A stretch of DNA of 39,757 bases, taken from NCBI GenBank assembly GCA_014190275.1, contig BJGE01000012.1:1-39757 (forward strand), given 5' to 3'. Both the position numbers and the translations under genes were made by a program. The notes under the pieces were generated by a model. The model worked only from the letters and a program-made list of their open reading frames with translations, made no database searches and had not been told where the DNA came from. The DNA is from Actinomycetes bacterium. GTDB lineage: Bacteria; Actinomycetota; Actinomycetes; S36-B12. Below are positions 34,584 to 39,657 of this stretch, one piece after another (the stretch's first letter is position 1; each line of letters begins with the position of its first letter).

Positions 34584-35210
34584 TTAGTGTCCGCGTGCTA
34601 CCCATGCCTGATAATCCTTTGCCTCATCGCCAACCGTGGTCGCACCGCCGTGCCCGGGAAGCACTTTGGTGTCACCCGGAAGGGTAAGAATTCTCTCGCG
34701 GATGGAGTCCAGGATCGTTCTGAAGTCACTAAATGACCTCCCGGTCGCACCAGGGCCACCTTGAAACAAGGTATCGCCGGAGATCAAGACCCCAAGGTCT
34801 GGTAGGTACAGGCAAACCCCGCCGGGTGAATGGCCAGGGGTGTGCAGCACCCTCGCTGTAAGGCTTGCGGCGCCTAGCACCTCGCCGTCACTGAGTTCGG
34901 AAGGCACGACACCCGGATGTACGACATCCCAAAGCATCAGGTCGCCTGGGTGCATCCGGATAGGTGCGCCGGTCTGCTCTGAGATGACCACGGCCTGCCC
35001 AATGTGGTCATCGTGGCCGTGCGTGCAAATGACCCCGACGACCTTTCGACCGCCGATCGCATCGAGGATTGCCTTGTGGTCATGAGCGGGATCGATGACC
35101 AACACTTCAGAATCGTCGCCTATCAGATAAACGTTGTTGTCCACTTCCCAGGTTCCACCGTCGAGCGAGAACGTTCCGCTCGTAACTATTGTTTGGATGC
35201 TAGGTGGCAT
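34584..35210 (-). CDS. MBL-fold metallo-hydrolase paired with mscR (putative S-formylmycothiol hydrolase role)
   Basis: The 208-aa metallo-beta-lactamase-fold protein has the metal motif CTHGHDDHIG (H-x-H-x-D-H), a second His in HTPGHSPGG, an Asp in ISGDTLFQGG and a final His in VLPGHGG, the glyoxalase II-type ligand set. It begins within the mscR stop codon (TAATG, one-base overlap). The same pairing occurs in mycobacteria, where Rv2260 lies next to mscR (Rv2259), and a role in hydrolysing or oxidising the S-formylmycothiol product has been considered. That function is an inference from context; the fold and metal sites are seen directly. Confidence 0.85.
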   Translation of the reverse strand: MPPSIQTIVTSGTFSLDGGTWEVDNNVYLIGDDSEVLVIDPAHDHKAILDAIGGRKVVGVICTHGHDDHIGQAVVISEQTGAPIRMHPGDLMLWDVVHPGVVPSELSDGEVLGAASLTARVLHTPGHSPGGVCLYLPDLGVLISGDTLFQGGPGATGRSFSDFRTILDSIRERILTLPGDTKVLPGHGGATTVGDEAKDYQAWVARGH

Positions 35211-36295
35211 TAAAGTACGACCACCGAGCGAAGCACTTCGCCGCGATGCATTTTCGCGAAAGCCTCTTCCACTTGATCAAGTGCAATCTCCTCTGAGACG
35301 AACCGATCCAAAGGCAGTCGACCCTGAAGATAAAGATCAATTAACATCGGGAAGTCTCGAGTTGGTAGGCAATCTCCATACCAACTTGATTTAAGTGAAC
35401 CCCCGCGCCCAAAGACGTCGATAAGTGGCAGATCCAGCCGCATCGTCGGATCAGGAACGCCGACAAGTACGACTGTGCCGGCGAGATCGCGCCCGTAAAA
35501 CGCAGCCTCGTAGGTCTCTGGACGCCCGACGGCATCTATCACCACATCTGCACCAAAACCTCCGGTGAATTCTTGGATGCCTTCTACGGCGTCGCGGCTA
35601 CGGGAGTTAACCGTGTGTGTTGCCCCGAACTCGCGAGCAAGTTCTAGTTTTCGGTCATCAATGTCAACCGCGATGATGGTGCTCGCCCCGGCCAATCGAG
35701 CTCCGGCGATAGCGGCATCACCTACGCCGCCGCATCCGATAACCGCCACGGTATCGCCGCGAGTTATGTTTGCGGTGTTGATCGCCGCGCCGAGCCCGGC
35801 CATCACACCGCAACCCAGCAATCCAGCAACTTGAGCCGGGGCCCGGCGATCCACCTTCGTGCATTGCCCTGCTGCCACCAGAGTTTTTTCGGCAAATGCA
35901 CCGATACCCAGTGCCGGGCTCAACTCGGTGCCGTCCTCAAGAGTCATCTTGGCTTCGGCGTTATAGGTGTTGAAGCAGTACCACGGCCGGCCGCGTCGGC
36001 AGGCCCGACAATCGCCACAGACTGCGCGCCAGTTCAAGATCACGTAGTCACCGGGCTGCACCCCGGTAACGCCCGCACCCACGGCATCGACAAAGCCGGC
36101 TGCCTCATGCCCGAGCAGAAAGGGGAACTGGTCATTGATTGCACCTTCCCGGTAGTGCAGGTCCGTGTGGCACACCCCGCATGCGGCGATTTTCACCTTC
36201 ACTTCGCCTGGCCCTGGATCGGGAATCACAATATTTTCTAGTGAAACGGGCGCGCCCTTCGACTTGGCGATAACGCCCCGAACGATCTCAGAAAT
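35210..36295 (-). CDS. mscR: S-(hydroxymethyl)mycothiol dehydrogenase (NAD-dependent formaldehyde dehydrogenase), ATT start
   Basis: The zinc-dependent medium-chain dehydrogenase oxidises the formaldehyde-mycothiol adduct. Seen: [14 protein letters not shown] (catalytic Cys), [14 protein letters not shown], the structural-zinc segment [32 protein letters not shown], and the NAD site [28 protein letters not shown] is typical of MscR. With a start at ATT 36295 the protein is 361 aa and its N-terminus ([20 protein letters not shown]) aligns with known MscR proteins at residue 1. AGGGAAGGG ends six bases upstream. No ATG, GTG or TTG occurs in frame between the preceding stop (36347-36349) and the ATT, and the first internal GTG (36229) would delete 22 conserved residues and has no ribosome-binding site. 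It is coupled to the MBL gene. Confidence 0.88.
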
Positions 36296-36301
36296 CGTAT
36301 G

Positions 36302-36310
36302 CCCTTCCCT
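36302..36310 (-). promoter_or_regulatory. Ribosome-binding site fixing the ATT start of mscR
   Basis: On the minus strand AGGGAAGGG ends six bases before ATT 36295, an ideal spacing. No other start codon lies in range, so this site supports initiation at ATT. Confidence 0.65.
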
Positions 36311-36346
36311 CGCTCTAACCGGACACGCCTTAGATCCGTGGGCTAA

Positions 36347-36520
36347 TTATTCCTCAGCACCTTCGAAGCAGAAGCCACCGTTGATTACGGACTTGACTGA
36401 GTACGACGGCTGTAGGCCGAGACCGATGCCATGGGCGCCGGGACGCACCCACGCCACAGCCATAGTCAACCGGTCAACCGGTGCAGAATTTGCTGGTGAA
36501 GCCACGTTATTCATTGGCAT
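36347..36520 (-). CDS. 57-aa small protein upstream of mscR
   Basis: A 57-codon frame begins at ATG 36520 with a perfect AGGAGG six bases upstream and ends at TAA 36347-36349, 51 bases before the mscR start and in the same frame. The peptide starts MPMNNVASPANSAP and ends NGGFCFEGAEE, with one Cys near the C-terminus and no transmembrane segment. I do not recognise the family. It is probably translated given the site strength, and a promoter lies upstream. It could be a small protein tied to formaldehyde metabolism, a regulatory leader peptide, or a precursor peptide, though no modifying enzyme is encoded nearby. Confidence 0.65.
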   Translation of the reverse strand: MPMNNVASPANSAPVDRLTMAVAWVRPGAHGIGLGLQPSYSVKSVINGGFCFEGAEE

Positions 36521-36568
36521 CTTAAACCTCCTGTAGGCGAATCGAAGTAACTTTTGAAGATGTTCGTC

Positions 36569-36596
36569 ATGGTACGTGTGTTTTCAGTAAATGCAA
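36569..36596 (-). promoter_or_regulatory. Promoter for the small ORF-mscR-dpp-dehydrogenase run
   Basis: On the minus strand TTGCAT and TACCAT are separated by 16 bases, a good sigma-70/SigA-type match. Transcription would start near 36562, giving a leader of about 40 bases before AGGAGG and the ATG at 36520. No other clear promoter or terminator was seen down to 27594, where all nine genes read in one direction. Confidence 0.5.
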
Positions 36597-36603
36597 GGCC
36601 CGC

Positions 36604-36803
36604 GAGGGGTTTTGATACTTTCCTCTCCAAATGTTGCTGGAGGTTGATACTCTTTTCGGCATGCGAGTGCGACTGGTGGCGCTTGCGCTAGGGCTGGCCT
36701 TGACAATCCCAATGGCTCCGGCCGCTATGGCCGGGTCTGGTGCAGATGCCCCCCGCACGCAGGTCCACGTGCAACCGCGTGCGGCGGTTGCCGGTGCGGG
36801 CAC
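36604..36803 (+). repeat. Direct repeat, right copy (leader plus signal-peptide coding)
   Basis: This is the near-identical partner of 19076-19275, in the same orientation. Identity covers GGGGT(N)TTGATA, the TTCCTCTCCAAATG leader, the GGAGG-TTGATACTCTTT segment and about 140 coding bases, then falls abruptly. Confidence 0.85.
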
Positions 36804-39657
36804 GCCTGCGGCGATATTGGCCACGGTGCCAGCGGTCTCACCCCTTCGAGTGGGATACGGACCTGGCCTATTTCCGTCTTTGTCTTCCAAGGCTAAAGAC
36901 AAGCGCGGGTGCACCCTACGCAACCAGATGCTGATCAAGCTGGCCACCAAGAAGCCGCGGGTGGGGGCCGGATGCACGCTTACCGGCGGCCTTTGGACCC
37001 TTGATTTCGGTGCTTCTAAAACCAATCAGGCGTCCAAGGTGAAACTTGGCAAGTTAATGCCTGACCTTTATGTCTATGGCCAGGGTGCCTACCTTTGGAC
37101 ACCACAGCAACGCGCCGCATACACAACTACGGTGGTAAAGGCCGCAACAACCTCTAAAACTCGATCTAAAGCAACAACGATCCATCCCATTATTTGGCTG
37201 CCAAATATCTCAAACTTTCAACCGGTATCTCGCCAAGGCTTTATTATTATGAATTCCCTATTGGACTTACTGATAAGTTTACCGGACCCGGAGATACAAC
37301 TGGAGGCTTTGAAATTAAGGAACCCGCTCTTCTTCGAATCTTGGACTGTGGCGACAGTACTTAACGCCAAAGCGTGGGGCTTGAGTTTCTCGCCGAAGGT
37401 CTTTGCGAATTTTCAGTTGACGATCGATGAATGCGCAAATAACCCATCTCCCTCACAAAATATCTGCTCTAATAGTTATGCCGTCCCCAACGAGGCCCAG
37501 CAATTTAACGTGGTCGCTGTTCCGCAGATTGCCTCCGAGGTGGCGGCACCCGAGCCAGCCATTCTAAATTCGTATAGTGCACCCACTACACCCGCCGTCG
37601 GTCATGACCTATTCGGCATCCATGCTCCGGCTGATTGGTTTAGTGATGTGGCCAGCGGGATAGAAGGGCCAACAAATCCCGCGACGATTCCGAGTGTGCC
37701 CGTTGGCTACCTTCGCCTTTGGGATACCGAAACCAAGTGGCGAGATCTTGAGCCCACCAAGGGCACCTTCATCTGGAGAAAACTACAAAAGCAGATTGAG
37801 ACCGCCCAAGTCCTCAATGCCAAGGTGATGCTGGTCCTAGGTGGCACACCGGCGTGGGCAGGTGGTGGTGGCGTCACGGATAACCCGACCAATATCGCTG
37901 ACTGGCGTAGTTACGTGCGTGAGGTTTCATGTAAATACGGCGCATCAATCAGCGCATATGAGGTTTGGAACGAAGCGAATCTATCTACATTTTACGGCGG
38001 TACCCCGGCGCAGATGGCGGATTTAACCTTGGCGGCATTCGAAGAGATTCGTAAATGCAACCCGAGTGCACTCGTGGTAGCGGCCAATACCACCTCGCGG
38101 GCGACCGGCTCCTTCGGGACTTTCTTCCCGGCCTACTTGGCGGAAATGAAGATACGTAATTGGCCGGCCGATGCTTACTCGGTGCACTCATACCCCACGG
38201 CGTCAGGTGGTGCCGATGATCGGATCAGGGGTATCGGTCAATTCCGCACCATGCTGGCGCTCTCCGGTGCACCACAGACCACCGTCTTTGACACTGAGGT
38301 GAATTACGGCCTTGCCGGGCTTGGAGAAGGCAAAGTCGATATCACCGGCGACAAGGCGATGGCACTGTTATCGCGCACTTACATTGATTCGGTGCGCTAC
38401 GGCTTTGGGTCCACGTTCTGGTATGCATGGACCAAGGCCAGCGATGGCGTCTTCGGTATTCAAATGACCCCGAGTTCGGCAGATGAACAGCAGGCTTGGC
38501 GAGCGACCTACGACTGGTTGATCGGCGCGCAACTGCAAAAGTGCGCCTCGCCAAAGACCGACCTAGTGGTATGCCAGTTCTCCAGAGGGGCCGATAACTT
38601 CTCTCTAGTCTGGTACGGCGATGTGAGCAGCCCAGCCAACTTGGTTTCGCCAAGTCGCTATTTCGGGAATTTAGGTTCGCAGTGCCAGACCTTGCGAGGC
38701 TCTGACTGCGCTGGCATATTAGCCGGCACTGCACCGTTGAGCTACATGCCGGTGCGCATCTTTGGCCCCCCAACTGCCGCGGCGAGTGTCCCTGCCAAGA
38801 TCACTATGGACAAAAGTGTGATGAGTGTGAGCCCCGCAGAAAGTCAGCCAGTCACCATCACAGTTCTCGACGCCAGCGGTAACCCGATATCCGGTCAGCA
38901 GGTTGACCTCATTGCGACCGGGGACACGCGCTTTGGCTTGGGCGATGGCGCTTCAACCCCCGTTACGAATGAGAAAGGCCAATTAGTTGTCACTATCACG
39001 ACGATTGGCTCGGCCACCGGCACCATAACCGCCGTCCCTGTTAACGGCCAAGCCGGCTTGAAAGCCACCGCCACGATAAGTAGTTATCGCCTTGGCGAAC
39101 TTGGTCCAGGAGGTGGCTTAGTGTTCTTGATCGCTAATGGAAAGACTTACGAGATGGCACCAAGGCCCCGAAATGCCGCTGTACCAAATAGTTTGTGCAC
39201 TTCAATTGACGTAGACCCCAATTGCTTTCTACCTGATCCAGAAGCGAGTTGGTGCAACAATGCAAGCTCCGCACTTCCTGGCACCGGTACCGAGGTTGGT
39301 ACTGGTAGGGCGAATACCGCTTTGATGGTGAAAGGCTGCACTAGTGGTGCTAGTCAATTGGCCGCGGACCGCGTAAGTGGCGGGCAGAAAGATTGGTTCT
39401 TGCCAGCTCTTGAAGAGTTGGATGCGATGGGAAGCTACCTAAACAACTGCCCAAGTGGCTGTGTTTTCCATGAGCGATTCGATTTTAACTATACGAAATC
39501 TATGGAATCTTCTTACTGGAGTTCCTCGCAGGACGCTGACATTCGCCCCACCCTCGCCTGGGGTGTGAATATCCGCTATTCGACTTCATCTCTCCTATTC
39601 TTTGTCCAGTTCCAAAAGGACAGCGCGCGACGCGTTCGTCCGATCCGATCTTTCTAA
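36631..39657 (+). CDS. Secreted multidomain protein: degenerate HNH-like domain, GH-A glycosidase, Ig-like domain, Lcl_C/DUF1566-like tail
   Basis: The 1008-aa paralogue of the 19103 product aligns without gaps to about residue 817. It has the same signal peptide, the same HNH-derived segment with KLGK at the catalytic site (138-141), the same glycosidase residues (Glu448 in YEVWNEAN, Glu556 in VFDTEVNYG) and the same Ig-like domain. Residues 166-236 are strongly diverged but equal in length. The tail differs: residues 822-1008 form an Lcl_C/DUF1566-type module (GPGGGLVFLIANGKTYEMAP, QKDWFLPALEEL, SYWSSSQ, VRPIRSF), common at the end of bacterial surface proteins and probably ligand-binding. 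The ATG at 36661 is an alternative start giving a shorter signal peptide. Confidence 0.82.
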   Translation: MLLEVDTLFGMRVRLVALALGLALTIPMAPAAMAGSGADAPRTQVHVQPRAAVAGAGTPAAILATVPAVSPLRVGYGPGLFPSLSSKAKDKRGCTLRNQMLIKLATKKPRVGAGCTLTGGLWTLDFGASKTNQASKVKLGKLMPDLYVYGQGAYLWTPQQRAAYTTTVVKAATTSKTRSKATTIHPIIWLPNISNFQPVSRQGFIIMNSLLDLLISLPDPEIQLEALKLRNPLFFESWTVATVLNAKAWGLSFSPKVFANFQLTIDECANNPSPSQNICSNSYAVPNEAQQFNVVAVPQIASEVAAPEPAILNSYSAPTTPAVGHDLFGIHAPADWFSDVASGIEGPTNPATIPSVPVGYLRLWDTETKWRDLEPTKGTFIWRKLQKQIETAQVLNAKVMLVLGGTPAWAGGGGVTDNPTNIADWRSYVREVSCKYGASISAYEVWNEANLSTFYGGTPAQMADLTLAAFEEIRKCNPSALVVAANTTSRATGSFGTFFPAYLAEMKIRNWPADAYSVHSYPTASGGADDRIRGIGQFRTMLALSGAPQTTVFDTEVNYGLAGLGEGKVDITGDKAMALLSRTYIDSVRYGFGSTFWYAWTKASDGVFGIQMTPSSADEQQAWRATYDWLIGAQLQKCASPKTDLVVCQFSRGADNFSLVWYGDVSSPANLVSPSRYFGNLGSQCQTLRGSDCAGILAGTAPLSYMPVRIFGPPTAAASVPAKITMDKSVMSVSPAESQPVTITVLDASGNPISGQQVDLIATGDTRFGLGDGASTPVTNEKGQLVVTITTIGSATGTITAVPVNGQAGLKATATISSYRLGELGPGGGLVFLIANGKTYEMAPRPRNAAVPNSLCTSIDVDPNCFLPDPEASWCNNASSALPGTGTEVGTGRANTALMVKGCTSGASQLAADRVSGGQKDWFLPALEELDAMGSYLNNCPSGCVFHERFDFNYTKSMESSYWSSSQDADIRPTLAWGVNIRYSTSSLLFFVQFQKDSARRVRPIRSF

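Follow-up and report, generated by a model that had tools for sequence, protein, structure and literature searches.

A 57-residue actinobacterial peptide as a probable member of a dispersed family of cyanobactin-like precursors

To gain insight into a short open reading frame of a 39,757-nucleotide stretch of DNA from an actinobacterial assembly (hereafter the window), we performed comparative genomic and bioinformatic analyses of the frame, its relatives and the enzymes encoded in the same genome. Our analysis indicates, with a probability that we put at about 0.88, that the 57 amino acid product is a precursor of a cyanobactin-like RiPP pathway served by a PatA/PatG/YcaO locus of that genome. 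The best reading of the whole is a cyanobactin-like RiPP system with a prochlorosin-like logic in Nanopelagicales-type actinobacteria.

A protein-coding frame in the window

The frame (MPMNNV...GGFCFEGAEE; 57 codons plus TAA, with an ATG start and a single Cys) lies on the minus strand from 36520 to 36347, and the first-pass annotation was correct in describing it with AGGAGG six bases upstream. The features of this region are as follows:

36347..36520, minus strand: predicted precursor peptide gene of 57 amino acids, stop codon included; one of about 28 family members in the genome
36404..36520, minus strand: conserved leader, codons 1-39, ending in ...LQPS (alignment A1; leader pN/pS 0.49 in frame)
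36368..36403, minus strand: hypervariable core, codons 40-51, YSVKSVINGGFC, last residue Cys (core parsing, A1)
36350..36367, minus strand: conserved C-terminal tail FEGAEE, codons 52-57 (A1; tails of cyanobacterial precursors)
36527..36532, minus strand: Shine-Dalgarno sequence AGGAGG, six bases before the ATG
36315..36326, minus strand: left arm GTGTCCGGTTAG of a hairpin, the apparent remnant of a terminator-like hairpin that is complete in genomes G005 and G007
35210..36295, minus strand: mscR, S-(hydroxymethyl)mycothiol dehydrogenase, apparent ATT start (TIGR03451); outside the peptide system

Neither the 57 amino acid protein nor its DNA had a match in Pfam, NCBIfam or Rfam at gathering scores. 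G005, a different species, encodes an intact counterpart that is 77% identical and adjoins the same upstream gene; comparison of this pair gave a pN/pS of 0.35 (37 differences, 20 of them at third positions). Together with purifying selection in frame across the family (described below), this intact counterpart bears out the earlier proposal of a real protein, and it is near certain that the frame is protein-coding and belongs to a gene family. The claim that it lies under the best promoter of the window was not supported by a scan of the interval 36100-36800, which gave no sigma-70-type match on either strand.

Divergent from the peptide gene, the window encodes a secreted-looking protein of 1008 amino acids (36631-39657, plus strand) with weak, below-cut-off matches to Big_1, cellulase and Lcl_C; it is also found beside the peptide gene in G005 (91% identity over 384 amino acids).

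A dispersed family with conserved ends and hypervariable cores

A search of 99 genomes with the 57 amino acid query returned matches in 10/10 genomes of the genus. The window's own genome (G000) holds 28 family places at E <= 10, all of them at 0.1 or better. One of these contains an internal stop, and the window copy is the only one on its contig. At E <= 1e-3, a profile (A1) built from 38 of about 105 copies detected 29 members in G000; 6, 29, 28, 19, 29, 22, 8, 46 and 30 in G001 to G009, respectively; 2 in G012, 2 in G021, 16 in G038 and 1 in G057; none was detected in the remaining 85 genomes. Several copies are arranged in tandem (e.g., G008:C22 and G002:C4), and some are cut by contig ends, broken or tail-less; broken and tail-less copies count against our preferred explanation. 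A transposase-like gene (L060:2552-3421, plus strand; PF00665 integrase core, 35.7 bits) is located inside the precursor array of G002:C4, and mobile elements may contribute to the spread or the breakage of precursor copies.

Complete copies consist of a conserved N-terminal part of about 39 amino acids, a hypervariable stretch of about 6-20 amino acids and a conserved end, mostly CFEGNEE. Tails were parsed from 105 ORF readings, which include a few genes counted twice from overlapping loci (e.g., L004/L063); 86/105 had a parsable complete tail and 19/105 had none, and a few leader/core borders were mis-split. The residue before the tail in the 86 parsed copies was Cys (80), Thr (3) or Pro (3). 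The impression that the C-terminus of the window peptide is constrained is sustained by the family, in which the tail is conserved and mostly reads FEGNEE. The cores diverge widely: no core recurs among the 22 parsed complete copies of the own genome, and 84 distinct cores yielded 8 pairs that are at least 60% identical, one of them a parsing artefact. The window core and that of its G005 counterpart (YSVKSVINGGFC / YSIKSVINGGFC) form a pair at this level. A first split into 76 cores, 3/76 of them mis-split, gave a composition of 18% Gly, 23% Cys+Ser+Thr and 7% charged residues; 30/76 had no Cys other than the last residue, which counts against our preferred explanation. Adenine-targeted diversification of the cores was considered and set aside, as core lengths vary.

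The synonymous-site bias proposed earlier as a check was found not only in the G000-G005 pair (0.35) but also in the leaders of the family (95 of 103), where pN/pS was 0.49 in frame versus 1.27 and 1.38 when the same strand was read in its two other frames. SD-like sequences precede many family copies. The 90 nt downstream folded with z < -2 relative to shuffles in 43% of 84 copies, versus 11% of 80 upstream controls, and a conserved GGTGTTTAAA-type hairpin element was present within 90 nt downstream in 37/105 copies, a pattern that fits single transcription units. Hairpins common to so many copies, and the tandem arrangements, could also be expected of a dispersed non-coding repeat of the REP or MITE kind whose copies are open by chance. 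However, the frame-specific constraint, with its ratios reversed in the other two frames, rules such a repeat out, and the SD-like sequences, the core length changes that preserve the frame and the conserved tail point the same way, so that practically no weight is left on this explanation.

No family member (0/38 at E <= 0.1) matched the cyanobactin precursor models TIGR03678, NF042906 and TIGR04446, whereas 12/12 cyanobacterial control precursors matched TIGR03678 and NF042906, a result that counts against our preferred explanation. We therefore consider the pathway type to be cyanobactin-like and the precursor family to be new to these libraries. The same 38 members had no match to Nif11 or NHLP leader models, and the few hits that they did give were weak, each in a single member.

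A PatA/PatG/YcaO locus in the same genome

Based on the precursor-like architecture of the family, the own genome was searched for TIGR03895 and YcaO, and the matches to both were located on contig C34 (locus L111), which encodes the following:

L111:862-4100, minus strand: a neighbouring pair of MFS transporter genes that share 93% identity along most of their length, the first with a masked stretch
L111: fused leader-binding/YcaO cyclodehydratase of 788 amino acids (TIGR03604, 249 bits, cut-off 219; TIGR03882, 88.7 bits, cut-off 36.9)
L111:6459-7718, minus strand: sulfotransferase-PqqD fusion of 419 amino acids, with the PqqD-like domain C-terminal (PF00685 and PF05402 over their cut-offs)
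L111:7672-8466, minus strand: conserved gene of 264 amino acids, with no NCBIfam (E <= 1e-5) or Pfam (E <= 0.01) match
L111: ThcOx/SagB-type oxidase of 767 amino acids (TIGR03605, 113 bits, cut-off 78; PF22767 ThcOx, 69 bits, cut-off 27.7)
L111: PatG-like subtilase of 677 amino acids (TIGR03895 over cut-off)
L111: PatA-like subtilase of 631 amino acids (TIGR03895 over cut-off)

The two C34 proteins scored 730 and 450 bits with TIGR03895 (cut-off 421), a model matched over its cut-off in 0/14 control genomes. The locus encodes several features of a cyanobactin cluster, namely PatA/PatG-family proteases, a cyclodehydratase with a leader-binding domain and a cyanobactin-type oxidase (an azoline oxidase is optional in this class), and the gene order from PatA-like to MFS is kept in G001, G003, G004, G006, G008 and G009. 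G001 (96% complete) has the entire enzyme locus yet six peptide copies, which counts against the preferred reading. The sulfotransferase-PqqD fusion suggests a leader-guided sulfation, and we know of no tailoring step of this kind in cyanobactins. The 264 amino acid protein presumably resembles the HPr-kinase-like proteins of lasso clusters. G006 has an additional YcaO gene (G006:C137:2860-3834), which is divergent, with 32% identity to that of the locus.

Linking the peptides to the enzymes

Counting proteases at E <= 1e-30 and peptides by profile A1 at E <= 1e-3, the 99 genomes divide into 12 with peptides and proteases, 2 with peptides only, 2 with proteases only and 83 with neither (Fisher's test, 8.6e-12 by genome and 2.9e-4 by genus, with relatedness not controlled). 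The peptide-only genomes are G002 (79% complete, with a YcaO fragment) and G007 (57% complete); the protease-only genomes G029 and G044 encode PatA/PatG-type proteases, and no peptide was found in them. These four genomes count against the preferred reading. In genus g12, peptides and proteases occur together in two genomes, and neither was found in the remaining three. As a separate observation, loci L166 (G029) and L167 (G044) represent another, distinct PatA/PatG-type locus; it includes a transporter, no YcaO relative was found in the stretch fetched, and no precursor was recognised.

Precursors adjoin the enzymes in three related genera: G012 has six precursor-like ORFs inside the enzyme cluster, G021 has several FADD-tailed family members beside the PatA gene, and G038 has family members on both sides of the proteases. 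Profile comparison of A1 with the G012/G021 precursor set gave a probability of 97.9 (E 4.4e-13). No precursor was found in the enzyme locus of the window's genus (own genome and loci L113-L118), and 0/28 family places of the own genome are on C34; action of the locus in trans is therefore something that we infer. Across genera, the placement of precursors is in-cluster (g4, g13), part-dispersed (g12) or dispersed with none seen in the locus (g1).

In the cyanobacterial precursors encoded near PatA, the leaders share a PVDR-like motif and the tails read, for example, SYEGDDE or FAGDDAE. Since a first, pattern-based choice of these precursors (48) had demanded a tail-like ending, a second choice was made by leader alone, yielding 65 ORFs in 31/67 cyanobacterial loci. 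A comparable tail was present in 49/65 and absent from 16, and the residue before it in the 49 was Cys (39), Pro (8) or Thr (2), the three residues also seen at this place in the window family. Profile A1 compared with 12 cyanobacterial precursors (profile A3, 12 of the 48 chosen by pattern) gave E 1.9e-5 and a probability of 77.5, and the G012/G021 set alone gave 37%.

Genes that are scattered, with none found in the enzyme locus of the window's genus, could encode small peptides of another function (bacteriocins, immunity or signalling) that the PatA/PatG locus leaves unmodified. We consider this improbable, given the co-occurrence of peptide and protease genes, their adjacency in G012, G021 and G038, the restriction of the residue before the tail to Cys, Thr and Pro as in cyanobacterial precursors, and the profile similarity to the latter.

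The junction with mscR

The first-pass annotation had placed the peptide at the head of a formaldehyde operon, as a possible sensor or leader of an AUU-initiated mscR. The local arrangement is as it described: mscR (TIGR03451, 684 bits, cut-off 513) follows in the same frame, with an apparent ATT start 51 nt after the peptide stop. The ATT (36293-36295, minus strand) is peculiar to the window in this comparison, as mscR has ATG at the equivalent place in both G005 and G007, and it corresponds either to a single-base change or to an assembly or consensus error in the window genome.

The direct junction of peptide and mscR is not conserved in these relatives. Downstream of the intact counterpart in G005 come a strong hairpin, an open frame on the opposite strand and then mscR with its ATG; the G007 counterpart is interrupted by two in-frame stops, and a GC-rich hairpin lies between it and mscR, whose ATG is 137 nt after the stop. 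The fold of the 90 nt downstream has a z of +0.9 in the window genome versus -8.5 in G005, and the left hairpin arm alone is left between peptide and mscR, for which reason the peptide-mscR 'operon' looks like the product of a local deletion. (The position of mscR in locus L002 was taken from its frame listing.) In the simplest reading, the peptide gene was probably run into mscR by a deletion in the window genome; an assembly or consensus error is the alternative source of the junction.

A leader peptide or sensor controlling mscR would agree with a frame 51 nt upstream, on the same strand and in the same frame, without a complete hairpin between them. It is nevertheless very unlikely: the two relatives compared do not keep the frame immediately before mscR, a hairpin separating the genes in both G005 and G007 (and also an opposite-strand frame in G005), and the G007 copy carries two stops. 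In addition, the genome has 27 other family matches at E <= 10, and a family dispersed over 28 places, with one alone on the window contig, is not mscR-specific. Control of mscR would also leave the hypervariable core, the conserved tail and the co-occurrence with PatA/PatG without explanation.

The two proteases and the shape of the product

Among the 60 of 156 PDB matches listed, the 631 amino acid protein was closest to solved cyanobactin N-terminal proteases (285-286 bits to 3zxx, 4h6w and 4h6v) and matched the C-terminal domain 4uvq with 273 bits; 4h6w, whose entry title is N-terminal cyanobactin protease, we take to be a PatA-type protease. Among the 60 of 106 PDB matches listed for the 677 amino acid protein, 4h6w (208 bits) was ahead of 4h6x (195.5 bits), a thiazoline oxidase/protease entry that we take to be PagG. 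With the subtilase domains as queries, 68/78 rows without the G motif matched the 631 amino acid protein's domain at least as well. In a tree of 78/131 domains, the 12 window-type G rows form a long branch of their own outside the cyanobacterial G and A clades, a placement that carries a long-branch warning. The motif and domain scores favour PatG, while the best PDB match is of the PatA type and the branch stands apart, so that 'PatG-type' is used here for role and motif, with no claim of orthology. The PatA-type best match, the separate branch and the lack of the macrocyclization insert (see below) count against our preferred explanation.

The aligned Asp-His spacing is 35 residues in 12/12 distinct window-type G rows, as in PatA-type proteins, versus 70-170 in 26/26 other G-motif rows; a cruder pattern count agrees, with 12/41 unmeasured. 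By this spacing, the macrocyclization insert is absent from the PatG-like protein. In PatG, it is this insert that shields the active site from water. The part of PMC4663559 available to us describes the insert as two extra helices and the active site as shielded from water. A PatG-type protease without the insert may release linear products.

Alternatively, the same system could make head-to-tail macrocycles like the patellamides, with the PatG-like protein as transamidase. The 677 amino acid protein shares the motif IIHCAFC with 4h6x and matches domain 4uvq (156 bits, among the 60 of 106 PDB matches listed), its subtilase domain is the better match for 26/26 other G-motif rows, and Cys, Thr or Pro at the cleavage position is the cyanobactin pattern. 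The short Asp-His spacing of all 12 window-type rows and the insert and the water-shielded site, both described for PatG in the portion of PMC4663559 at hand, argue against macrocycles, which we regard as possible but rather doubtful.

Scanning the genome collection with the PatA-like protein gave 289 confirmed relatives, of which the best 80 were kept. Actinomycetota MAGs head this set, followed by numerous Cyanobacteria (about 43-53% identity) and by single records of Actinomadura, Gandjariella, Sphingomonas and Bradyrhizobium; one MAG record among the best 80 is titled Candidatus Nanopelagicales from Lake Baikal, and isolate codes suggest that other related MAGs come from inland waters. The host of the window DNA is an aquatic actinobacterium, probably of fresh water. 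In a tree of 52/84 PatA-type rows, the branch with the protein of the window's genome lies apart from that of the Cyanobacteria. Three MAG records titled Bifidobacterium breve (L171, L176 and L177) group with Nanopelagicales-type MAGs and are probably misnamed.

Proposed pathway

In the pathway that we propose, the cyclodehydratase would bind the leader and turn core Cys (perhaps Ser/Thr) into azolines, from which the oxidase would make azoles. The PatA-like protease would cut after the leader (...LNPS|, after PS in the window copy), a site proposed by analogy with the G(L/V)E(A/P)S given in the available text of PMC10885120. The PatG-like protease would recognise the tail and cut before it (C|FEGNEE), and in the window copy the last core Cys would become an azoline or azole before this C-terminal cleavage. 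The released peptide, linear or macrocyclic and perhaps sulfated, would then be exported. A single enzyme set would act in trans on the dispersed precursors, and the genome would thereby encode a small combinatorial peptide library, with the window copy as the member with core YSVKSVINGGFC, probably placed directly before mscR by deletion.

More tentatively, and at slightly less than even odds, the system may represent a new RiPP subclass of actinobacterial plankton, in which a single locus acts in trans on tens of dispersed precursors, and its PatA protease and insert-less PatG-type protease set free azole-capped peptides that are linear or closed in another way and possibly sulfated. It would be the cyanobactin counterpart of the prochlorosins, and the genera would form a series in dispersal, with precursors inside the cluster in g4 and g13, partly dispersed in g12 and fully dispersed in g1.

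The proposed pathway would place cyanobactin-type chemistry with tens of scattered precursors in Nanopelagicales-type actinobacteria, such libraries being otherwise known mainly from cyanobacteria. If true, it accounts for dozens of easily overlooked small ORFs per genome. The family provides one type of enzyme set with more than 80 natural core sequences, as well as a natural test of how a PatG-type protease acts without the macrocyclization insert, and it would add a second case, of a chemistry other than that of the prochlorosins, to the question of why small-genome plankton keep dispersed peptide libraries.

Comparison with known systems

The closest parallel is to the cyanobactins (PatA, PatD, PatE and PatG; patellamide/microcyclamide). 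The window system shares with them PatA/PatG-family subtilases over the NCBIfam cut-off, a TOMM cyclodehydratase and a ThcOx-type oxidase, and precursors built of leader, core and tail, in which the leader carries a PVDR-like motif and the aromatic-acidic tail is preceded by Cys, Pro or Thr. Unlike them, it belongs to Actinomycetota and has about 28 (up to 46) dispersed precursors that are unmatched by cyanobactin precursor models; its oxidase is separate from the PatG-like protein, which lacks the macrocyclization insert; its locus adds a sulfotransferase-PqqD protein; and its PatA- and PatG-like branches lie apart from the cyanobacterial ones. In the sections of the literature available to us, cyanobactins are described as products of Cyanobacteria (PMC4603692), their clusters as having up to 10 precursor genes (PMC4663559), and cyanobactin-like genes as noted in one Saccharopolyspora (PMC10145562). 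Our searches of open PMC text turned up no account of actinobacteria with a dispersed cyanobactin library.

Nif11/NHLP TOMM systems contrast with the tail logic of PatA and PatG. Large precursor families with hypervariable cores, as described in the accessible part of PMC4603692, are a trait that they share with the window family, whose leaders differ in having no Nif11 or NHLP model match. The linear cyanobactins (aeruginosamides and muscorides) resemble the system in a possible linear product with a heterocycle at or near the C-terminal end; in the muscorides, however, the tail is removed by the YcaO-like MusD and not by a PatG protease, according to the available text of PMC10885120.

Finally, the prochlorosins and synechococsins (ProcA/ProcM and SyncA/SyncM) offer the nearest genomic logic, one promiscuous enzyme set in an aquatic genome (its action in trans being, in our case, deduced) together with tens of precursors with conserved leaders and variable cores, both scattered and in tandem. 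Such libraries comprise 29 ProcA and 79 putative SyncA in the portion of PMC10783134 at hand. Those peptides are lanthipeptides made by a ProcM-type enzyme, whereas the system described here has TOMM/cyanobactin-type enzymes and precursors with a C-terminal tail.
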